Shown here: positions 5,513-29,512 of the stretch, one piece after another
Position numbering within the stretch: position 1 is the stretch's first letter
Layout of the letters: every line of letters starts with the position of its first letter
Source of the DNA: a virus
Virus record (IMG/VR): IMGVR_UViG_3300025061_000012
Location: 1 to 29,512 of that record
DNA: 29,512 nucleotides
Reading direction: 5' to 3' (one strand)
The notes under the pieces: generated by a model
What the model was told of the DNA's origin: nothing
The model's database searches: none
Seen by the model: the letters and a program-made list of their open reading frames with translations, nothing else
Translations under genes and position numbers: made by a program

Positions 5513-6876
5513 TTGACGACCAAAAGAGGTTTATCCAAGTTGAGCAATGCGTACTTAATCAATTGCTTGGCAGAGACGGTGCATTCGATATGGTCAGTGA
5601 CGTTGTTATTGCTGAGGACTTCGACGCGCTAAGACATCAGATTATCTATCAGGCAGTCAGTGATTTAGCGATAGACGGCAAACCTTACGACCAGGTTATG
5701 GTGATGGACCTGCTTGAAGAGCGTAAGCAGCTCAATGAGGATTGCTGCCCGCCGGGTTACTTCGCTCAAATGAGTTTGATACCAAGTATTACGTTCAGTA
5801 GCTTGCGTCACCATGCCCAGCTGGTCAAAGGCCGTTCAATTCGCAGACAGTCTATTGCTCATTTGATGCATGGCATACAGAAGCTTGAGGAGGGGAATCA
5901 TCAGACCATTGATGTGAATAACGATGTTATGAGTGCTATTTCCAACCTTGAAGTGGGTGATACCGATAAAAGTAGCGCTCGAGTAGGCGACTTGATGGGC
6001 GGCATGATTGAGCGTATCGCATCAGCTAGGGATGGCGTCAGCAACTTTATCTCTACTGGATTCCCTGAGCTTGATAACTTGATGATGATTGATGCTGGCA
6101 ACTTGGTTGTGGTCGCCGCTCGCCCTTCAATGGGTAAGACAGCCTTGGTCATGAACTGGCTTTCACATATTGCTAAGTACCGAGAAGGCGAAGCTGTATT
6201 TTTTAGCGTAGAAATGCCACAAGAGCAGGTCATGGACAGGCTGGCAAGCGCCGAGGCTAAGGTTGAGCTGACTTCTATCAGAAAGGGGCAGTTAAGTACC
6301 GACGAATGGGGTCGTATGCAGCGCTTTATCTCGGACCAAGAGAGCATGCCTTTGACCATCGTAGATGAAAAGGATATCAGTATTGCGAAGATACGCACCC
6401 ACTTGAACCGTATAAAGCGGGAAGCTGGCGGGAAGCTATCGGCTATCGGTGTTGATTATCTGCAAATAATGGGCGGGCTTGATGGGCAGTACAAGATTGA
6501 CAACATCGGCAAAGTTACTCGCACGCTAAAAGCATTAGGTCATGAGTTTGGTTGCCCCGTGTTTCTACTGTCGCAGCTAAGCCGTGATGTTGAGAAGCGC
6601 CCAAATAAGCGCCCTATCATGTCTGACTTGCGTGATTCAGGAACGATTGAGCAAGATGCTGACATTATCGCCTTTGTTTACCGTAACGATTACTACGAAC
6701 AAAAAGAGAAAGGTGGCAGCGCCAAGCTTGATGGATCGGCAGAGATTATTTTGGCCAAGAGTAGAAACGGACCTACTGGAACCGTAAGGCTGGGCTTTGA
6801 AGGTCAGTATGTGCGCTTTGCTAACTACATACCAATGATGACCGATTTGGATGAAGTGCCAGAATATGGTGGTTAG
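5509..6876 (+). CDS. DnaB-like replicative DNA helicase
   Basis: This 455-residue protein is a full-length DnaB-family helicase. The N-terminal domain (about 1-150) carries the helical loader/primase-binding fold. The RecA-like C-terminal domain has Walker A A-R-P-S-M-G-K-T (204-211), Walker B I-G-V-D-Y-L-Q-I-M (about 310-318) and the L-S-Q-L-S-R-D-V-E-K-R motif followed by S-D-L-R-D-S-G-T-I-E-Q-D-A-D. It would unwind the replication fork after loading by the upstream DnaC-like protein. The start overlaps the upstream stop (ATGA). This gives the element phage-type fork machinery in addition to the Rep_3 initiator at 26700. Confidence 0.93.
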   Translation: MIDDQKRFIQVEQCVLNQLLGRDGAFDMVSDVVIAEDFDALRHQIIYQAVSDLAIDGKPYDQVMVMDLLEERKQLNEDCCPPGYFAQMSLIPSITFSSLRHHAQLVKGRSIRRQSIAHLMHGIQKLEEGNHQTIDVNNDVMSAISNLEVGDTDKSSARVGDLMGGMIERIASARDGVSNFISTGFPELDNLMMIDAGNLVVVAARPSMGKTALVMNWLSHIAKYREGEAVFFSVEMPQEQVMDRLASAEAKVELTSIRKGQLSTDEWGRMQRFISDQESMPLTIVDEKDISIAKIRTHLNRIKREAGGKLSAIGVDYLQIMGGLDGQYKIDNIGKVTRTLKALGHEFGCPVFLLSQLSRDVEKRPNKRPIMSDLRDSGTIEQDADIIAFVYRNDYYEQKEKGGSAKLDGSAEIILAKSRNGPTGTVRLGFEGQYVRFANYIPMMTDLDEVPEYGG

Positions 6877-20302: not shown

Positions 20303-23300
20303 ATGGCATCAAGCTCACTTGGCACATTAACATTAGATTTAGCGGTAAGGCTGAGTGAGTTTACTGACGGCCTGTCGCAAGCAGAACGTGAGACAAGGAA
20401 TCGCACACAAGAGATGGGCGATTCCGTTGGTAAATTTAAAGAGAAGTTGATAGATGACCTAAGCGGCACCGCTATCGGCGACGCTGTAGGCTCTCTTAAC
20501 GAAAAACTATCTTCCATCACTGAGGCTTTTGGCGAGAGGGGTTTGGCGGGTGCAGCCACAATAGGTGCGGCTTCTGTTATAGGATCGGTCGTCGCTATAG
20601 GTGCCGGCCTCGTGACATTGGCGTTGCAAACAGCAGAAACAGACCAGCAGCTACAAAGACTGGCAACAAGAGCCAATACTTCTACTGCGAACCTACAGGT
20701 ATTGACAGCAGCTACTGCCGCGTATGGACTGGAAATGGACAGCGTCGGCGATATCTTAGCAGACGCTCAGGAGAAGCTAGGAGAGTTTAGTGCTAATGGC
20801 GGTGGCGGATTGGTTGATACCTTAGAGCTTATGCAAGAAGCCACTAAGAAGACTGATGCAGAGTTAGAAATATTCGGTAAAAGCTTGTCAACAATGGATA
20901 GTGTCGATGCTATCCAAGCCGTCGTAGATGAAATGGAAAAAGCGGATGCGACTACCCAAGAAGTCCGGTTTGTCACTGAATCGCTAGCGAGTGGCCTAGG
21001 TGATATTATACCGCTCTGGGATAATAACGGCGAAGCGCTACGGAACTACGAGCGCGACCTTAATGAAGCTGGCGTAATCAGAACCAAAGAGTCTATAGAA
21101 CAATCTCAGATTTTAGCAAATGAGCTGTCAGGGTTGCAGGTTAAGCTTGAAGGGATGTCTAACGAAATCGTAACAGCCACTTTGCCAGCGATGGTAGGCT
21201 TAATTGAATATATGAAAACAGGTACTACGGACGCGGACGGACTGAGCGATAGCTTGTCTTCTATGGGTGTAGTGGCAGCAGTTATAGCAACCCCTTTTAT
21301 AGGGCTGATGTCGGTATTCAAACAAACAGCAACTGTAGTAGCAGGGTTAATGGGTAGTATTAGCTCTTTGTTTAGCCTTATGTCAAATGTATTGTCTAAT
21401 CCTTTTAAGATAGGTACTTATCTTCAGGAGTATGCAAGATCTACAGGCCAGTTAGGTCAATATATGATAGAAGATATGGCCGCAGAAAGAGATAGGGCTG
21501 TAAATTCCTTACAAACTATTTGGAGCTCTCCTAGGGAGCTAGCCGATAAAAGAGCTGCGCAAAACTATAGCAGTTCTTATGGTAACTACGGCAATAAAAA
21601 TAACGGTACCAATTTTAATTCTATTTTAAATGGTGGCTCTAATACTGCTATTCCTTATAGAACGGGTGGCATTCCTTATGGAACTGGCGCCGCAGCCGAT
21701 GAGATAATTGCTTCACGAGCAATAGCTGATGCTGAAGAAGAAGAAGCTAAGGCCAAAGAAAAAACCGCTAAGGCTAATGACAAGAAGACAGCATCCATTA
21801 AAAAACAAGCGGAAGCCCAAGCTCGCTTGGTGGGTATCAGTGGCGACACTGGGGTGGGTAACGCTCACCTACATGTACAGTATCGTGATAAAAGCCGACC
21901 AGTTAGTGCAGCTGACCTTGCTAGATTTCAGGCAGGTGGCAAGGCTATCACTGACTATAAAATGACATCGGGTTACGGTAAACGCAATACCGGTATCAAA
22001 GGCGCGTCGACCAACCACAAAGGTACTGATTTTGGCGTACCTAAAAATACTCCTATCACAACGAATGTACCAGTAAAAGGCGTTAAGACATGGCTAGATA
22101 AGAAAGGTGGCGGTTATGTCTCTACCGTTACTTTTGGTGATGGTGTTGTCATTGACTTATTGCATCAAATGCCTGGCGTTATGGGTATTGAAAAAGGACA
22201 GACTACTGGTAATTCACAGATAGATGGAGCTATTAAAAACGCAGCCGCTATGCAGCAAAAGTCTGCCGCTGATGCAGCTCGTGCACAAGAAAAAGCCGCG
22301 GCAGATGCAATTAGAGCGCAAGAAGAAATATTGCGCAAGCAAGCCTCTGTCGCTGGCAAGTGGGCTCACGAAAAAGAGAAGATTGAGCTTGATTACCAAA
22401 ACAATGTCACTGAAGTTAAAGAAGCTTACGCTGAAGGTTCCGCTGACTATATTAAATACATGGCTCGCGTAGAAGAAGATTATACCAAAGCCAAAAACGC
22501 AGGACTGCTATCTATTACTGAGAAGTATTTTAGTGAAGAACAAAAAATCCACGACGACCACAAAAAAGAAATAGCAGCTATTGAAAAGGAGTTCGTTGAA
22601 GGCGATCCAAACAGAACGCTTTTTGTTGACCTACAAAAAACTGCCTATGAAAAAGATTTAGAAAACTTTAGATGGGCATCTGGTGCAAAGGCGCGCGAAC
22701 AAGATGAGATGTACCAGTCAATTGCTAATAGCGCTCGCGCCAATAGCATAAATTCCTTGTCCACTGGCTTGGATAGCATGGCTCAACGCACCATGAGCGA
22801 CGATGATTATGCGGTTTGGCGGTTGAGGCAAGACCGCGCCGACGCTTTTGGCTCAGTAAATAATCAGTACAGTGATCGTCAAAAAGAGATCAATGCTAAA
22901 GATGAGCGCGGAAAGGAATATCTGTTACCTGAGCTTGAACGCAATGAATTGTTAGAAATCGCCAAGCAAGAACATCTGGATAATCTATGGGCCATGGAAC
23001 AAGACTATGCATTGAAGCAGCAAACCTTAGACGATCAACTACAAGATGCTAAACTCCAAAATTACGGCACAACATTGGGGGCAATGGGAAGTCTACTTGG
23101 GGCCTTTGCCGGTGAGAATAATCGTATTAGTCAAATGATGTTTTCTGCACAAAAAGGCTATGCGCTCGCCCAAATATTTATGAATAACAAGGTTGCGCTA
23201 TCTGAAGCTTGGGCATCCGCACCATTCCCATACAACGTACCAGCTGTAACGATGGCTGCGCTTGAAACAGGTGCGCTAGCTGCGGCCGCTCAAGCTATAA

Positions 23301-23641
23301 CGCCAATGTTCAGCGGTATTGCCCATGGTGGTCTTGATTACGTTCCAAAAGAGCAAACGTACCTGCTCGATAAGGGTGAGCGCGTACTGTCACCCAATCA
23401 GAATAAAGACTTTACCAATTTCATGCAGGGCAATAAGAATGGTAACGGTTATAGCGGTGATGGTGTTGGTGAAATCAATATCGTTGTAAGTGTAGATGCC
23501 AAAGGCAATAGCTCAGTGACTGGCGATACTGCTAATACCTTTGCTAAAACGATGGCAAAACAAGTAGAGCAAACGGCTCGGAATGTGGTTAGAAAAGAGT
23601 TAATGCAAGGTGGTATGATAGATAAGCGTCTTAGAAGATAA
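20303..23641 (+). CDS. Tape measure protein with a permuted M23 peptidase domain
   Basis: This 1112-residue protein sets tail length. The N-terminal part is helical; hydrophobic stretches lie at about 80-115 and 320-360. At about 505-630 is an M23-type peptidase with its motifs in unusual order: G-D-T-G-V-G-N-A-H-L-H comes first (H522, H524), then S-G-Y-G-K-R and H-K-G-T-D (H572, D576), then L-L-H-Q-M (H621). In ordinary M23 domains the H-x-H motif comes last. All five key residues are present, so activity on peptidoglycan during entry is plausible. Residues 640-950 are charged coiled coil. The end (A-H-G-G-L-D-Y-V-P, L-L-D-K-G-E-R-V-L-S-P) is typical of tape measures. Ribosome site AAGGAAAA is somewhat far from ATG 20303. 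Confidence 0.93.
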   Translation: MASSSLGTLTLDLAVRLSEFTDGLSQAERETRNRTQEMGDSVGKFKEKLIDDLSGTAIGDAVGSLNEKLSSITEAFGERGLAGAATIGAASVIGSVVAIGAGLVTLALQTAETDQQLQRLATRANTSTANLQVLTAATAAYGLEMDSVGDILADAQEKLGEFSANGGGGLVDTLELMQEATKKTDAELEIFGKSLSTMDSVDAIQAVVDEMEKADATTQEVRFVTESLASGLGDIIPLWDNNGEALRNYERDLNEAGVIRTKESIEQSQILANELSGLQVKLEGMSNEIVTATLPAMVGLIEYMKTGTTDADGLSDSLSSMGVVAAVIATPFIGLMSVFKQTATVVAGLMGSISSLFSLMSNVLSNPFKIGTYLQEYARSTGQLGQYMIEDMAAERDRAVNSLQTIWSSPRELADKRAAQNYSSSYGNYGNKNNGTNFNSILNGGSNTAIPYRTGGIPYGTGAAADEIIASRAIADAEEEEAKAKEKTAKANDKKTASIKKQAEAQARLVGISGDTGVGNAHLHVQYRDKSRPVSAADLARFQAGGKAITDYKMTSGYGKRNTGIKGASTNHKGTDFGVPKNTPITTNVPVKGVKTWLDKKGGGYVSTVTFGDGVVIDLLHQMPGVMGIEKGQTTGNSQIDGAIKNAAAMQQKSAADAARAQEKAAADAIRAQEEILRKQASVAGKWAHEKEKIELDYQNNVTEVKEAYAEGSADYIKYMARVEEDYTKAKNAGLLSITEKYFSEEQKIHDDHKKEIAAIEKEFVEGDPNRTLFVDLQKTAYEKDLENFRWASGAKAREQDEMYQSIANSARANSINSLSTGLDSMAQRTMSDDDYAVWRLRQDRADAFGSVNNQYSDRQKEINAKDERGKEYLLPELERNELLEIAKQEHLDNLWAMEQDYALKQQTLDDQLQDAKLQNYGTTLGAMGSLLGAFAGENNRISQMMFSAQKGYALAQIFMNNKVALSEAWASAPFPYNVPAVTMAALETGALAAAAQAITPMFSGIAHGGLDYVPKEQTYLLDKGERVLSPNQNKDFTNFMQGNKNGNGYSGDGVGEINIVVSVDAKGNSSVTGDTANTFAKTMAKQVEQTARNVVRKELMQGGMIDKRLRR

Positions 23642-24030: not shown

Positions 24031-24378
24031 ATGAAATATATGACATTGAGAACGTTTACATGGTGCATCAATGCAGGTGCGACGCAAAATACCGAGATTA
24101 GAACCAATACCACACGCTTTGGCGATGGTTACGAGCAAGTTTCCAGCTTTGGTATCAATAATGCCCGTAAGTCATGGCAATGCTCAAAAACAGCATTGTC
24201 GCCCGAGATTAATGAAATACATGACTTTTTGTTAGAACATAATGGCGTAACTCCGTTTATTATGACTATCGATGGTGAAACTAAGACGTACCGTACTGAA
24301 GGTGATATCAGCAAGAGCCACATTAGTGGCAAAGTTTGGCAAGTGTCGTTTAATATCCGACAGGCCTTTGTTCCTTAG
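24031..24378 (+). CDS. Minor tail protein, lambda gpM-like; last tail gene
   Basis: The 115-residue protein matches the phage minor tail (gpM) family: F-T-W-C-I-N-A-G-A, R-F-G-D-G-Y-E-Q-V-S-S-F-G-I-N-N, W-Q-C-S-K-T, and the close G-K-V-W-Q-V-S-F-N-I-R-Q-A-F. ATG 24040 (M4) may be the true start, because GGATG would then serve as ribosome site. In lambda-like phages gpM is followed by L, K, I and J. Here it is followed by a strong terminator and plasmid DNA, so the tail operon is cut short. Confidence 0.88.
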   Translation: MKYMTLRTFTWCINAGATQNTEIRTNTTRFGDGYEQVSSFGINNARKSWQCSKTALSPEINEIHDFLLEHNGVTPFIMTIDGETKTYRTEGDISKSHISGKVWQVSFNIRQAFVP

Positions 24379-24407
24379 TTTTGATAAAAACCTATCTGCA
24401 CGATGAA

Positions 24408-24437
24408 AAGCCCACCTAAACAGGTGGGCTTTTTTTT
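24408..24437 (+). terminator. Strong terminator closing the late operon
   Basis: AAGCCCACCT (24408-24417) pairs with AGGTGGGCTT (24422-24431) around AAAC, with eight T. It marks the border between phage and plasmid modules. Confidence 0.93.
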
Positions 24438-24491
24438 GTGCCTAAAATTTGATAAACAAACCGCCAAAGAGATGGGTGAGCAGTTATAAGA

Positions 24492-24616
24492 CCCTGCTCA
24501 AAGTTGAGCAGGGGTGGCGAGTTGATAACACTGCTCAACTTTGAGCAGTCGGCATATAGGGTCTCCTCAAGCAAATTTGGATGCATCTATTTAAATACCC
24601 CCAAACTTGGGGGTAT
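24492..24616. repeat. Palindrome cluster at the phage-plasmid border
   Basis: Three perfect palindromes share a CAA-NN-TTG centre with different arms: CCCTGCTCAA-AG-TTGAGCAGGG (24492-24513), ACTGCTCAA-CT-TTGAGCAGT (24530-24549) and ATACCCCCAA-AC-TTGGGGGTAT (24595-24616). The last one and its upstream GGATGCATCTATTTA recur in diverged form at 25859-25893. Confidence 0.8.
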
Positions 24617-24780
24617 CTCCTAATCAACCACAACAAACTAAGCGCTATTCAGAATATATAATTTTGGCGGCTATCGCCTATCCTGCGATAGACAAATGGG
24701 GTCATTTTGTCGGCGTAAGCCTATCCTGCAATCAAAGAAAACAGGTAACAAACGAAGCTGAACCACTTAAATAATAACCT

Positions 24781-24880
24781 TAAGTTGTCTTAGGTTGTCT
24801 TAGGTTGTCTATAGTTGGATTGGCTGGCTTAATATTCAAATATTGGTTGTTTTAGGTTGTTTTAGGTTGTTTTAGGTTGT
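24781..24880. repeat. Tandem arrays of 10-bp units (TAGGTTGTCT, TTTAGGTTGT)
   Basis: TARGTTGTCT is repeated three times at 24781-24810, and TTTAGGTTGT three times plus one variant at 24841-24880. Both share the core TAGGTTGT at exact 10-bp steps. This looks like an iteron or centromere array bound by a small DNA-binding protein. Confidence 0.9.
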
Positions 24881-24940
24881 TTGCCCTCTTGCTGCTTCAC
24901 AAAATCTCACATTGAGAGTGAATCACCACCACAGTTTACG

Positions 24941-24990
24941 TTCTAATACGTTCTAATACGTTCTAATACGTTCTAATACGTTCTAATACG
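24941..24990. repeat. Tandem array of five 10-bp units (TTCTAATACG)
   Basis: TTCTAATACG is repeated five times without error, with partial units on both sides (ACG before, TTC after). The unit differs from the neighbouring arrays but the 10-bp period is kept. Confidence 0.95.
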
Positions 24991-25027
24991 TTCAAAATCT
25001 TATATCGCTGACGCTATCGCAAAAGTA

Positions 25028-25073
<46 letters not shown>

Positions 25074-25251
25074 AGGAATATAGGAATATAGAAATACAGG
25101 AAGCAGAAAAGGCAAATTATAAATATTGGAATAATTCGAACGCTTTATATAGCAAGCCCGTCCAAGGAATAATAAAATAAATAGGAAGCAAGAATTGTAA
25201 TAACCTTAGTAGGGGTCACATTTGAAATGCTGCCCTTGGTGATGCTGGCAC

Positions 25252-25345
25252 GTTACACGGTAACAAGTGACAGGCCTAACTATTAACTGATAAGTTACAC
25301 GGTAACGGAGTAACTCAACGCTACTGACTAATGTTACAGGGTAAC
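25252..25345. promoter_or_regulatory. Candidate operators of the RHH gene
   Basis: GTTACACGGTAAC occurs at 25252-25264 and 25294-25306 (42 bp apart), and GTTACAGGGTAAC at 25333-25345, five bases before the RHH start and covering its likely ribosome site (AGGG). Arms GTTAC/GTAAC are conserved while the centre varies. The position strongly suggests autoregulation. The same palindrome occurs twice at 2505-2538. Confidence 0.65.
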
Positions 25346-25350
25346 GCCAT

Positions 25351-25578
25351 ATGAAAGAATTACAGCGCAGAAAAGCAACCTTCCCACTTGCCAAGAGCAA
25401 TGCTCAGCGGCAAAAGGAGTACAGACAGCGGCAGAAGAGTAAGCAGGCTGTCAGGATTGATATGTACTTAGATAATGACATTCACTACATGCTTGAGCAG
25501 TTGGCAGAGAATGGCGATACCGACATGAGAACAGTCTTAAGCACCATCATTAAGAAAGAGTATGCTGAGCAGTTATAG
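25351..25578 (+). CDS. Ribbon-helix-helix DNA-binding protein (plasmid regulator)
   Basis: The 75-residue protein has a basic N-terminal part (N-A-Q-R-Q-K-E-Y-R-Q-R-Q-K) and then an RHH fold: strand A-V-R-I-D-M-Y-L (31-38), helix A I-H-Y-M-L-E-Q-L-A-E-N-G (42-53), helix B T-V-L-S-T-I-I-K-K-E (about 60-69). Proteins of this form are common next to plasmid rep genes as copy-number or partition regulators (CopB-like in plan). No ParA-type ATPase is visible anywhere, so it would act alone. The start sits 5 bases after a GTTACAGGGTAAC palindrome, implying self-control. Confidence 0.8.
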   Translation: MKELQRRKATFPLAKSNAQRQKEYRQRQKSKQAVRIDMYLDNDIHYMLEQLAENGDTDMRTVLSTIIKKEYAEQL

Positions 25579-25583
25579 TCCAA

Positions 25584-26183
25584 CCCCCAGTGGGGGATGA
25601 ACACTGCATTACCGGTAACGCTGATATGACCTTCAACACCTTTATAATAAAAGTTCTGCATTTGAAGTGCGGAATACATGGGTCCATCCTCAGTTTGAGG
25701 TTAGATAAACGACATCCTCAAACTGAGGAAGTTGATTTATAGGGTCTCCTAGAAAATAGTAGACCCCTGGGGCGTACCATCTGGTACACCCAAACCTATA
25801 GTACCCACAACCCTCATTGATGGATGTGTAAAAGGTGCTGACGAGATGCATCCAAATTTGGATGCATCTATTTAGATGCCCTCAAACTTGAGGTTATCTT
25901 TATATAGACGTTTCCACCAATGGTGGCAGCGTTTATTTGCGGAAACGAAGGGGTGTCGTATTTTTGACGATACCCCCTAAAAAGCATTATTAGGTTATTA
26001 GCTGACGTGGTGCATACTAAAAAAACCATCTGCAAAATAGCCTAGGCAAACTTAATGGAATTGTATTTGTTTAGCAGACACAAAGGTTTGGGTTTTCAAT
26101 TCAGTCACTGCCCAACTTTGGGCAGTGAGGTCACGTTCGTCATTATGACGAACCCCTGATAGTTGGCCAATAAAATTGGCCAA
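25584..26183. repeat. Dense family of perfect palindromes with varying arms
   Basis: Members include CCCCCA-G-TGGGGG (25584-25596), CCTCA-GTT-TGAGG (25688-25700) and CCTCA-AAC-TGAGG (25716-25728), GTACCA-TC-TGGTAC (25774-25787), a perfect 24-bp palindrome with arms GATGCATCCAAA (25845-25868), CCTCAA-AC-TTGAGG (25880-25893), CCACCA-A-TGGTGG (25914-25926), a longer hairpin at 25950-25976 with one G-T pair, CACTGCCCAA-CT-TTGGGCAGTG (26106-26127), GTTCGTCAT-T-ATGACGAAC (26135-26153) and TTGGCCAAT-AAA-ATTGGCCAA (26163-26183). The arms change together while the symmetric form is kept. Confidence 0.85.
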
Positions 26184-26360
26184 TATTGGAAACACTGTAT
26201 CAATTGAGGTGATAACTCTGATTCCCTCGAACCTTACCGCTTTAAAATATAGTTAGCTGTATGGTCAATCATTACGTTTTAGTGATAGATGGTTTTTCTT
26301 ATCAAAAATAAAAACCATCACCAGTTTATTGAACGTGACTGTGTTTGCCTAGGCTATTTT
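26034..26360. repeat. Pair of 18-bp inverted repeats (MITE-like segment)
   Basis: AAAATAGCCTAGGCAAAC at 26034-26051 is the exact reverse complement of 26343-26360. They enclose 291 bases that hold three of the palindromes and a hairpin with 10-base arms GATGGTTTTT/AAAAACCATC (about 26288-26319). No target-site duplication is seen at the edges. It could be a miniature element or a large origin hairpin. Confidence 0.6.
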
Positions 26361-26528
26361 TAATAGGTTTATCAGCACATTCTGAGTTAGTTATAATTAG
26401 GTTTACCTTGCTCACTAATCATATTGAAAGATATAAGTATTAATAAAACAAATAGGTTTTTAATGCTTTTAATGTTTTTAAAGCTTTTACGTGCTCTGTA
26501 GCCTTTGGTGCGTAAGGCTTTCAACCCC

Positions 26529-26616
26529 CATTCAAGGACGTTTATCGACCCATTCAAGGACGTTTATCGACCCATTCAAGGACGTTTATCGACCCATTAA
26601 GGGACGTCTATCGACC
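26529..26616. repeat. Four 22-bp iterons of the Rep_3 origin
   Basis: Four head-to-tail 22-bp repeats sharing the core AAGGACGTTTATCGACC lie at 26529-26550, 26551-26572, 26573-26594 and 26595-26616. The first three are identical; the fourth has AAGGGACGTCTATCGACC. Iterons spaced by 22 bp just upstream of a Rep_3 gene are the classic binding sites for initiator monomers and for copy control by handcuffing. Confidence 0.93.
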
Positions 26617-26650
26617 TTTAAGGGACAAATTTACAATAAATGTCCTTTAA
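26617..26650. promoter_or_regulatory. Inverted repeat between iterons and rep (likely rep operator)
   Basis: TTTAAGGGACA (26617-26627) and TGTCCTTTAA (26641-26650) form an inverted repeat with one mismatch. It shares the AAGGGAC part of the fourth iteron. Rep_3 proteins repress their own gene as dimers on such half-iteron palindromes. Confidence 0.7.
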
Positions 26651-26699
26651 TGTGTTATCATTCATCAATCGATAGTTAAAGCTAAAAGGATGTTTTGAT

Positions 26700-27647
26700 A
26701 TGGCAAGACAGCAAATGGTGGTTAAAGATAACAGCATGATAGGCGCAAGTTATAGTCTTGGCGTGGCAGAGCAGCGAATTATATTTCTAGCTATTGTTGA
26801 AGCGCGTGAACAAGAAACTCTTATCAAAGCGGGCGGGTTGCTAAGAATAAGCGCGCAGAACTACGCTAAGCAATTCAATGTAGAAAAACACACTGCGTAT
26901 AAGGTGTTAAAGGGAGGTGCGGATGGGCTGTATGATGCAGAGTTCAACTATAGTTATGCAGATAAAAAAACGGGTAAGCTATTCCATGCCCGTAGTCGTT
27001 TTGTGCAAAAGATTGCTTATGCGGATGAATTAGGCTGTGTCGAGCTTGTTTTTGCCGAGGACGTGGTGCCACTAATCACAAGACTTGAGGAGCGCTACAC
27101 TGAGTACGAGCTCAAGCAGGTCAGCGCTCTGCAAAGTGAGTACGCTATAAGGCTGTATGAGCTGCTGATCCAGTGGCGTAGTGTAGGCAAAGTACCTACC
27201 ATGGATTTAGAAGAGCTTCGAAGCAAGCTGGGCGTGGCAGAAGGGAGTTACAAGGAGATGAGCGACTTTAAAAAGCGCGTGCTCAAACTGGCTCTTTCTC
27301 AAATCAATAGCTTCACAGATATCATTGCCGACTACGATCAAGTTAAGAGTGGACGAAAAGTTACAGGTATATCATTTCGGTTTAAACACAAGCCAACTCC
27401 TAAAGCTGAAAAACCAAATGAGGCCGTCAATGACAATGCTTTTATAAAAATGACGCCTGACCAAATAGGCACTTTCAGCAAAAAGCTAGCTGCATTACCT
27501 GAGCTTGGCAGCAATGCGCCAATTGGAATGAGTGGGGCTGACTTTGTTGCAATGGTTGCTAATGACCTCAGAGACGCGGCCAAACAGAAAAAGTATCATA
27601 AGTACTTAGCAAAATTAGGGTTTAAGGCAGCAAAGAGCGAGGCTTAA
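26700..27647 (+). CDS. Plasmid replication initiator, Rep_3 family
   Basis: The 315-residue protein matches Rep_3 (RepB-type) initiators with two winged-helix domains. The N-terminal domain has V-V-K-D-N-S-M-I-G-A-S-Y-S-L-G-V-A-E-Q-R-I-I (about 7-28) and Y-A-K-Q-F-N-V-E-K-H-T-A-Y-K-V-L (about 51-66). The middle shows Y-T-E-Y-E-L-K-Q-V-S-A-L-Q-S-E-Y-A-I-R-L-Y-E-L-L-I-Q-W, the family signature, and F-K-K-R-V-L-K-L-A-L-S-Q-I-N. It binds the iterons and opens the origin. AAAGGA lies 9 bases before ATG 26700. It shows that the element can replicate as a plasmid. A C-terminal extension of about 70 residues is not recognised. Confidence 0.95.
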   Translation: MARQQMVVKDNSMIGASYSLGVAEQRIIFLAIVEAREQETLIKAGGLLRISAQNYAKQFNVEKHTAYKVLKGGADGLYDAEFNYSYADKKTGKLFHARSRFVQKIAYADELGCVELVFAEDVVPLITRLEERYTEYELKQVSALQSEYAIRLYELLIQWRSVGKVPTMDLEELRSKLGVAEGSYKEMSDFKKRVLKLALSQINSFTDIIADYDQVKSGRKVTGISFRFKHKPTPKAEKPNEAVNDNAFIKMTPDQIGTFSKKLAALPELGSNAPIGMSGADFVAMVANDLRDAAKQKKYHKYLAKLGFKAAKSEA

Positions 27648-27679
27648 GCCAAGCAAAAAGCCCAATAAATACAAAAAAC

Positions 27680-27703
27680 AGCCTACTTAATTGTAGGCTT
27701 TTT
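27680..27703 (+). terminator. Rho-independent terminator after rep
   Basis: AGCCTAC-TTAATT-GTAGGCT (27680-27699) with a T-run. It isolates rep from the region upstream of int. Confidence 0.88.
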
Positions 27704-28203
27704 ATTGCTAGCCACATAAGCAAGGTCAAAAAGCACCCATCCCAAGCAAAAAGTTATAAATGCTACCAACTGCCCGGCAATCGATAGTTAAACAATCGCT
27801 AATACTGTAAGTGCAACATTCCCCAAAAAGCTACGCACTTACCACCACTACGACTTATTGGATGCCCGTGTTACGTCTGGTTATACAAACGGCTTTCTAA
27901 AAATATTTGATATTAGCTACCAAAATGGCTACCAAAAACGACTAATCAAATAACAAACCTATAATTATCAATATCTAGAGAGGTTAAAGCAGGTACTGAT
28001 TAGGTAAATGCTTACTGGTATCAGGTGGTATCTAGTGGTATCATGAGTCTTGTTGTCAATAATTAGAAGGCCTTGAATATTAGTGAATATTCGACCTTAA
28101 GCCAATGTTTGCAGTAGGTCATTATAAAAGCTACCAAGGCGGCTACTCATAACAACAATAGTAACGGCTGTTTATTCGGCTACCAATGGTAAGGGCTACC
28201 ATC
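27704..28203. promoter_or_regulatory. Gene-free region upstream of int with repeated motifs (candidate attP area)
   Basis: No gene is visible. GCTACCA occurs at 27762-27768, 27916-27922, 27929-27935, 28130-28136, 28179-28185 and 28195-28201, with a variant at 28142. TGGTATC occurs three times at exact 10-bp steps (28016-28042). Repeated short motifs beside a tyrosine integrase are typical of arm-type integrase or Xis sites, so attP may lie here. The core crossover sequence cannot be recognised; no tRNA 3' end is present. Confidence 0.5.
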
Positions 28204-29512
28204 ATGGCAAAACCAAAACCAAAACCAATAACCACTGCTAACCAAATAGATAAAGCCATTACTGAGGCCGTCAAAAACGGCAAAACCGTGTCTTTGCCAA
28301 TCGCAGGATTTAAAGGACTGGAGATAAGAATAAGACCTTCAGGAAGCGGCAGAGGTGCAACCACCACATTCAGGCACCGCTACAAATCACCCTATGTGAA
28401 TAAGCGCCCATACATGACCATAGGGACCTACCCTTACACGACACTAGCCCAAGCGCGGGTTAAACATACTGAGAATATGGTGCTGCTAGACCAAATGATT
28501 GACCCAATAGCGCAGCGTGATGCCGATCATAAAGCCAAGGTGCAAGAGCTGACGCACGGCTTTAGCGATGTTGCCCAGCAGTGGATAGACAAAGAATCTG
28601 ACGGTATGTCACACCAAACCTTAACCGGCTGGAATCGTGCCGTGCAATCAGGCATTGAGGCGTGGGGCAAAGACATCCCTATTAAAAACATTACCCGCTC
28701 AATGATATTGAAGCTCTGCGAGGACGTGGCAAGGGACACGCCTGCCACCGCTAAGCGTATGGCAAATGTTTATAAGCGTATTTTTAGTTATGCCCTTATG
28801 CGCGAATTGGTTGATGTGAACCAAGCCGCCGAAATAGCAGGTCAGTTAAAGACCAATAAGGTTGTTCACCAGCCTGCCATTATTAAGCCCGGTCCCTTTG
28901 GTAAATTATTGCGCGATATCGATGCAATGCCACACATACATGAGCGCACAGCACTACAGCTTATAGCGCTACTGTTTGCCCGCGTTGGTGATATGAGCGC
29001 TGCAAAGTGGAGTGATATAGATTTTGATGCCGCCCAGTGGACGTTTACACCTGAAAAGTCAGGCAGTCGTACCGATATGGTTGACGAGTTGGTAGTACCG
29101 CTACCCAAGCAGGCTATTGCGCTACTTAAAGAGCAATACGAGTACACAGGTCATCGCGAGTATGTCTTCCATAACCAACGACGAGTAAGACGCAGCGCGC
29201 CGCATCTGAATAGCGCAAATCTAAGCCGTAAGCTTGGTTTGATTAATAAGGGGCGCTACAAGGGCGTGCACGTTCCGCATGGCTTTAGGGCATCCGCATT
29301 AACAATGTTGCAAGAGCAGCTTGGTTACCCTAACCACTTGGCAGACGCCGCACTCGGTCACGCAGTCAAGGACACCAATGGAGCGGCATACAATCGCGCC
29401 AAATTCATCGCTGAACGTACCGAGATGATGCAGGTTTATGCAGACTACTTGGACGAGTTGAAAGTAAACGATAACGTCATACATGCCATATTCAAGGCAA
29501 AAGCACAAAAGA
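28204..29512 (+). CDS. int: P4-type tyrosine integrase (5' part; ends at 1-135)
   Basis: The reading frame starts at ATG 28204, runs to the window end, and continues at base 1 to a stop at 135, giving 438 residues. The N-terminal part holds the arm-binding domain (L-E-I-R-I-R-P-S-G, F-R-H-R-Y, M-T-I-G-T-Y-P-Y-T-T-L-A-Q-A-R). The core-binding domain follows (about 115-220), then the catalytic domain: R260 in L-F-A-R-V-G-D-M, H359 and R362 in H-G-F-R, H386 in L-G-H, and Y396 in A-Y-N-R. The family integrates into and excises from tRNA-type sites. GGGCTACC upstream of the start is a weak ribosome site. No frame break is visible. Confidence 0.94.
   Translation, partial: MAKPKPKPITTANQIDKAITEAVKNGKTVSLPIAGFKGLEIRIRPSGSGRGATTTFRHRYKSPYVNKRPYMTIGTYPYTTLAQARVKHTENMVLLDQMIDPIAQRDADHKAKVQELTHGFSDVAQQWIDKESDGMSHQTLTGWNRAVQSGIEAWGKDIPIKNITRSMILKLCEDVARDTPATAKRMANVYKRIFSYALMRELVDVNQAAEIAGQLKTNKVVHQPAIIKPGPFGKLLRDIDAMPHIHERTALQLIALLFARVGDMSAAKWSDIDFDAAQWTFTPEKSGSRTDMVDELVVPLPKQAIALLKEQYEYTGHREYVFHNQRRVRRSAPHLNSANLSRKLGLINKGRYKGVHVPHGFRASALTMLQEQLGYPNHLADAALGHAVKDTNGAAYNRAKFIAERTEMMQVYADYLDELKVNDNVIHAIFKAKAQK
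29386..29512. repeat. Terminal direct repeat, right copy (circular overlap)
   Basis: These 127 bases match 1-127 exactly. See the left copy. Read as a circle, this stretch occurs once. Confidence 0.93.

Follow-up and report, generated by a model that had tools for sequence, protein, structure and literature searches.

The Tape Measure Gene and Its Setting

The DNA analyzed here, referred to as the window, is the whole 29,512-base stretch of an IMG/VR virus record. The only long open reading frame (ORF) spanning the M23-like motifs was found at positions 20303..23641 on the plus strand. It encodes a protein of 1112 aa that matched PHROG families 1506, 2854, 13674 and 339 (tail length tape measure), with a best E-value of 9.9e-86. 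Genes for the head maturation protease, the major head protein, the portal and the neck are located on its 5' side. The gene itself follows those for the major tail protein and the tail assembly chaperone and precedes a minor tail protein gene. Thus, the product is identified as a tape measure protein both by PHROG homology and by its position in the tail module, and the PHROG matches together with the neighboring head and tail genes indicate a siphophage-type tape measure. Since the closest counterparts of the M23-like domain among bacterial contigs were found in Psychrobacter (83% for L007 and 75% for L008), the phage probably infects Psychrobacter or a close relative of it.

In the 3' part of the window (24378-29512), the tail module ends after one minor tail gene, which is followed by 2.3 kb without a long ORF. 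A Rep-type replication gene (26700-27647) lies 3' of this gap, and an integrase-like ORF extends from 28186 to the window end. In the near relative L139, similarity to the window ends at 24452, where the tail module stops. Because similarity is lost at the same place, the two may have the short tail module in common, as parts of an element that was reduced or rearranged.

Motif Order and Parts of the Domain

The earlier note, made from the sequence alone, had placed an M23 peptidase domain with rotated motif order and a complete set of metal and catalytic residues inside the tape measure. The ORF translation bore this out. The motifs HLH (522-524), SGYGKR (556-561), HKGTD (572-576) and LLH (619-621) follow each other in this order within the 1112-aa ORF matching the PHROG tape measure families. 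As judged from sequence, HLH, HKGTD and LLH provide all metal and catalytic residues, and they are conserved in relatives. A second HxH past residue 621, which would have completed an ordinary domain, is absent; apart from HLH, the ORF contains no HxH.

The permuted domain comprises aa ~506-640 (21818..22222; like all features below, on the plus strand). It begins with the element RLVGISGDTGVGNAHLHVQ at aa 508-526 (21824..21880), which aligned with the end of the canonical domain in HHalign (query 9-46 on canonical 84-120) and is the counterpart of the C-terminal GQxIGxSGxTGxSxGPHLHxE of ordinary M23 peptidases. Within this new N-terminal element, GISGDTG precedes H522-L-H524 (21866..21874), which by homology provides the catalytic His and the third zinc ligand. 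The HL of this motif is invariant in 36 diverse relatives. The old C- and N-termini are fused by a linker of aa 527-555 (21881..21967) that includes SAADLARFQAGGK. It is mostly without a canonical M23 counterpart, and the alignment to the doubled profile described below spans it as an insertion.

The ordinary M23 domain begins at the motif S556-G-Y-G-K-R561 (21968..21985), of which S, G and R are invariant in the 36 relatives. H572-KGT-D576 (22016..22030) would supply two zinc ligands by homology; its H and D are likewise invariant, and this part of the domain aligned with the canonical start (HHalign query 73-143 on canonical 3-76). L619-L-H621 (22157..22165) is the counterpart, by homology, of the lone active-site His. 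Its L and H are invariant in the 36 relatives, and LLH or FLH occurs in 130 of 130 distinct domains. The new C-terminal end, EKGQTTG at aa 630-636 (22190..22210), was placed by its sequence and by the matches to 3slu. It resembles the VKxGQ turn ahead of the GISG strand in ordinary M23 domains, and the first 3slu piece stops at chain residue 300 while the next starts at 307.

The domain is flanked by two Ala/Glu/Lys-rich segments that, from their sequence, probably form coiled coils. The preceding segment comprises aa ~470-505 (21710..21817), and a helix was predicted in it at residues 2-18 of the AlphaFold2 model built from 13 sequences. The following segment comprises aa ~641-699 (22223..22400).

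Sequence Profiles Support Circular Permutation

In a phmmer search against PDB sequences, ShyA was matched in two segments whose order was swapped (query 43-155 on chain 219-325 and query 21-58 on chain 322-360), and TagE was matched in out-of-order pieces as well. Similarly, a profile of 36 permuted domains matched 3slu with profile positions 68-138 on chain residues 227-300 and 4-38 on 307-340. Only a few residues thus lie between the cut ends in the ordinary protein.

For profile comparisons, canonical HMMs were built from ordinary M23 domains and then doubled. In HHalign, the 36-domain permuted profile gave two out-of-order matches to the single canonical profile (E-values of 1.5e-15 and 6.6e-7). 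Against the doubled canonical profile, it gave one continuous match (query 9-143 on 84-203, probability of 99.3%, E-value of 4.5e-20), and a second canonical alignment led to the same outcome. With HMMER and a 12-sequence HMM, the window domain scored 58.5 bits in one stretch of the doubled model (hmm 87-217 of 254), as compared to 40.8 and 9.7 bits in two out-of-order pieces of the single model. Ordinary M23 controls gained nothing from doubling this HMM. With a second, trimmed HMM that was doubled, the HMMER match of the window domain was not in one stretch, being split at the linker.

Pfam Peptidase_M23 scored the window domain at 20.3-21.3 bits, i.e., below the gathering cut-off of 28.7, in a partial match covering only the H..D..H part. 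A partial match below threshold is expected of a rotated domain. The domain possesses HxxxD, HxH, the lone His and whole-domain homology to M23 irrespective of order, and it departs from the family in the chain order HxxxD - H - HxH and in its Pfam score.

Predicted Structure

AlphaFold2 models were obtained from 13 sequences (pLDDT 76, pTM 0.73) and from 36 sequences (pLDDT 83, pTM 0.80), the latter with the predicted strands in rotated order. When the first model was compared to the PDB by VIA-align, LytM, lysostaphin, ShyA and other M23 enzymes ranked first. Scores were modest: LytM was aligned with a Z of 6.1 over 86 aa at 2.8 A (model 48-144, i.e., aa 537-633, on LytM 185-271), and lysostaphin with a Z of 6.1 over 88 aa at 2.7 A. 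The C-terminal part of LytM with its HxH and the first 47 residues of the model with HLH were left unmatched. At a Z of about 6, this pattern of matched and unmatched parts of the model is more informative than the score. For the second model, lysostaphin ranked first (Z of 5.6).

Plain Foldseek found no PDB match at E <= 0.001; as a sequential aligner, it is expected to give this outcome for a permuted fold as well as for a wrong one. In a viral structure library, four matches at E < 1e-3 were obtained, all to large phage proteins, including the S-TIM5 'virion structural protein and packaging' and an uncultured tape measure.

Relatives Share the Permuted Order and Are under Selection

The earlier note had suggested searching for other tape measures with the rotated order, and such proteins were found in Psychrobacter, Acinetobacter and Moraxella phages. 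In total, 294 fetched loci with 130 distinct domains keep the permuted order, 51 of the domains being in ORFs of tape measure size and 79 in stand-alone proteins; this set was collected by homology and filtered by motif order, with contigs refetched in overlapping scans, and thus is a description rather than a census. A completing HxH was present in none of the 294 loci. The third-ligand position reads HLD in 121 and HLH in 9 of the 130 distinct domains, all of which possess H..D and LH. Across 36 sequences with identities down to ~25%, the residues H, L, S, G, R, A, S, H, D, G, L and H are invariant.

Psychrobacter contigs and IMG/VR contigs have HLH in permuted order, while Acinetobacter phages such as R3177 and the Moraxella phages Mcat18-23 have HLD. 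In another genome of the same taxonomic order (L103:568-3417), the tape measure carries the permuted M23 domain with HLD, followed directly by an SLT transglycosylase domain (E-value of 2e-11). Among weaker tblastn matches, the permuted order was further recognized in Synechococcus phage S-EIVl and in contigs of aquatic viruses, where the domain occurs in many stand-alone proteins of ~220 aa. The S-EIVl family also led to rejection of the notion that the permutation is confined to tape measures.

Among bacteria, full-length permuted matches were limited to two genomes, G001 and G199, in the order sample (294 genomes) and to G001 in the samples at class and phylum level. A widespread occurrence in bacteria was therefore rejected, the other listed matches being partial and mostly limited to the H..D part that is common to ordinary M23. 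Several of the early matches, from cyanophage, fecal, Listeria and Vibrio sources, proved on checking to have the ordinary order.

In Moraxella phage Mcat18 (L019, ~6150-6260), a 1-nt deletion at HRGID, within the permuted domain, breaks the tape measure into two ORFs. This break is common to several Moraxella phages (also L134, Mcat21 and Mcat22), and an ATG shortly after it starts the second ORF. With a frameshift within the domain in four Moraxella records, the domain may be dispensable there. Compared with window positions 21770-22300, one of the families PHROG 20119 and 20905 stops and the other starts within the permuted domain, apparently because these families were built from such split tape measures.

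With synonymous divergence (pS) near saturation, pN was 0.13-0.21 in the domain, as compared to 0.31-0.55 in most flank comparisons; in one upstream flank comparison (with L002), pN was lower than in the other flanks. The permuted domain is thus under strong purifying selection. Taken together, sequence profiles, conservation, purifying selection and AlphaFold2 models strongly support the view that aa 506-640 form a circularly permuted M23 domain.

Proposed Function and Alternative Explanations

M23 enzymes bind zinc via HxxxD and HxH (PMC8269130), and by sequence every counterpart of these zinc-motif residues is present in the window domain. Activity has been shown for EnpA, an M23 domain in a tape measure (PMC8269130). 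For a fragment of the T5 tape measure pb2, periplasmic peptidoglycan digestion, perhaps with refolding, was proposed (PMC10038345). Moreover, two relatives carry a second cell-wall enzyme domain in the same protein, namely SLT in L103 and Phage_lysozyme2 in S-TIM5 gp111. By analogy to other tape measures with wall enzymes, and given SLT in L103, a local opening of peptidoglycan at infection appears plausible.

The following scheme is proposed. The cut in an ordinary domain would have fallen in the GQ-x-V / x-I-G turn, just ahead of the strand with HxH, and the linker of ~29 residues would have fused the former termini. The resulting phage-borne subfamily would now be present in tape measures of Moraxellaceae siphophages and in S-EIVl-like stand-alone proteins. 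In the window phage, the domain would be carried in the tail with the tape measure and released with it at infection. Zinc would be held by H524, H572 and D576, catalysis would rely on the histidines H522 and H621, and local cutting of peptidoglycan peptides would allow passage of the DNA. As a whole, this reading of a complete, single permuted M23 domain, with a probable single origin and a predicted role in zinc-dependent wall cutting at infection, is very probable.

Some M23 homologues are inactive. The permuted fold might have lost catalysis and act in the tail as a structural element or in binding the wall, and both the Asp as last zinc ligand in 121 of the 130 distinct relatives and the frameshift in the domain of some Moraxella phages point in this direction. 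However, the equivalents of H522, H572, D576 and H621 are invariant across two very divergent clades, the clade of the window has the full HLH set, and purifying selection on the domain is strong. Ordinary-order phage M23 domains (L287 and L286) can likewise have Asp as the final residue of this motif. Overall, loss of catalysis is unlikely. The human gut phage scaffolds L286 and L287 carry HCD (L286) or HLD (L287). HLD was therefore rejected as a consequence of the permutation; Asp as third metal ligand is not tied to it.

The earlier note had further supposed that the permuted enzyme is tuned to pass the tail tube and to refold on delivery. Such an adaptation to threading would fit the position of the domain within a tape measure, between helical segments, and the new termini at one turn, which might make it a side lobe on a continuous rod; refolding has likewise been put forward for the enzyme of the T5 tape measure (PMC10038345). 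In contrast, the same permutation exists in stand-alone proteins, and ordinary-order M23 domains are found inside other tape measures, including that of EnpA (PMC8269130). Since tape measures thus do not require the permutation and are not its only carriers, the supposition found no support here and is quite improbable. In a milder, possible version, the domain would hang out as a side lobe between the helical segments, owing to the location of both ends at a single turn.

It is highly improbable that recombination placed two halves, left over from ordinary M23 domains in tandem, side by side without their forming one folded domain: although tape measures are mosaics and S-TIM5 gp111 has an extra upstream GQxIG-type segment as expected from duplication and trimming, the parts together make very nearly a single domain (HHalign 9-46 on 84-120 and 73-143 on 3-76), cut and linker are the same in 130 distinct sequences with the halves always together, AlphaFold2 predicts a folded domain (pTM 0.80) and the ~220-aa stand-alone protein is mainly this domain.

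Comparison with Known Systems and Significance

The complete permuted domain favored here shares SxxGxR, HxxxD, the lone LH, HxH and probably the predicted beta fold with the M23 peptidases (PF01551) LytM, lysostaphin and ShyA, which were among its best PDB sequence and fold matches. It differs from them by the HxH strand coming first, the new linker between HxH and SGYG and the weak Pfam score. Ordinary-order M23 domains are likewise present in tape measures, presumably for local wall opening, namely in SPbeta-type Bacillus phage SPbetaL5 (L394), the Thermus P23-45-type (L393), Listeria B054 (L242) and EnpA. Unlike the window domain, these have the order HxxxD ... H ... HxH, the HxH of B054 being HVH.

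The open-access literature searched yielded no permuted M23, LytM or lysostaphin domain, but only permuted NlpC/P60. In that family (YaeF/Poxvirus G6R and LRAT-like groups), natural permutation swapped the order of the catalytic residues (PMC6403190). Permuted NlpC/P60 resembles the window domain as a permuted cell-wall peptidase fold, but is a cysteine peptidase of unrelated fold. The permuted M23 form is present in many phage records without a published description found in the open-access literature searched. As family models of ordinary order under-score or halve the domain, tail-borne wall-cutting enzymes are missed or mis-drawn; most Pfam M23 scores of permuted domains fall short of the cut-off. 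The clade allows tests of the route by which an enzyme becomes permuted in nature, of Asp as a substitute for the third zinc ligand and of the importance of new ends for enzymes traveling in the tail.

Origin of the Permutation

An IQ-TREE phylogeny was calculated from 73 domains and 112 columns, with the two pieces set in common register, and was midpoint-rooted. All permuted domains were split from all ordinary ones with a UFBoot of 98, and the tape measure type and the S-EIVl type, both on the same side of the root, were each supported with 100. The permutation probably happened once, in the common ancestor of the phage-borne subfamily, within the limits that short alignments set to the tree.

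Cyanophage S-TIM5 gp111 (YP_007006114.1; L392:2129-5122) is a virion structural protein that, like the window protein, has HLH (within aa 516-547) ahead of SEHGSR-HTGVD-LAH (577-643). Unlike the window protein, it contains an extra upstream M23 segment of the GQxIG type (aa 430-464, Pfam E-value of 2.1e-7) and, after the permuted motifs, a phage tail lysozyme domain (Phage_lysozyme2). This arrangement is suggestive of a less-trimmed duplication intermediate, the HMM pieces other than the Pfam match being weak. An active permuted M23 subfamily of single origin, carried by phages and serving in tape measures as well as in free virion proteins to breach the cell wall at infection, with S-TIM5 gp111 as its less-trimmed form from duplication and truncation, is somewhat favored.

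AHV82231.1 of Synechococcus phage S-EIVl has the same permuted order (GAHLDVR near residue 23, then SEFGKR, HEGID and LLH) and is collinear with the Acinetobacter tape measures (E-value of 3e-5). It differs from the window protein as a stand-alone protein of 248 aa with HLD and a longer linker. Its annotation, 'peptidase M23 family', is silent on the permutation. In a sub-clade of the stand-alone proteins (L276-L283 and L290-L303), HPAHD, HQAHD or HLGQD replaces HxGxD, with H and D being kept.
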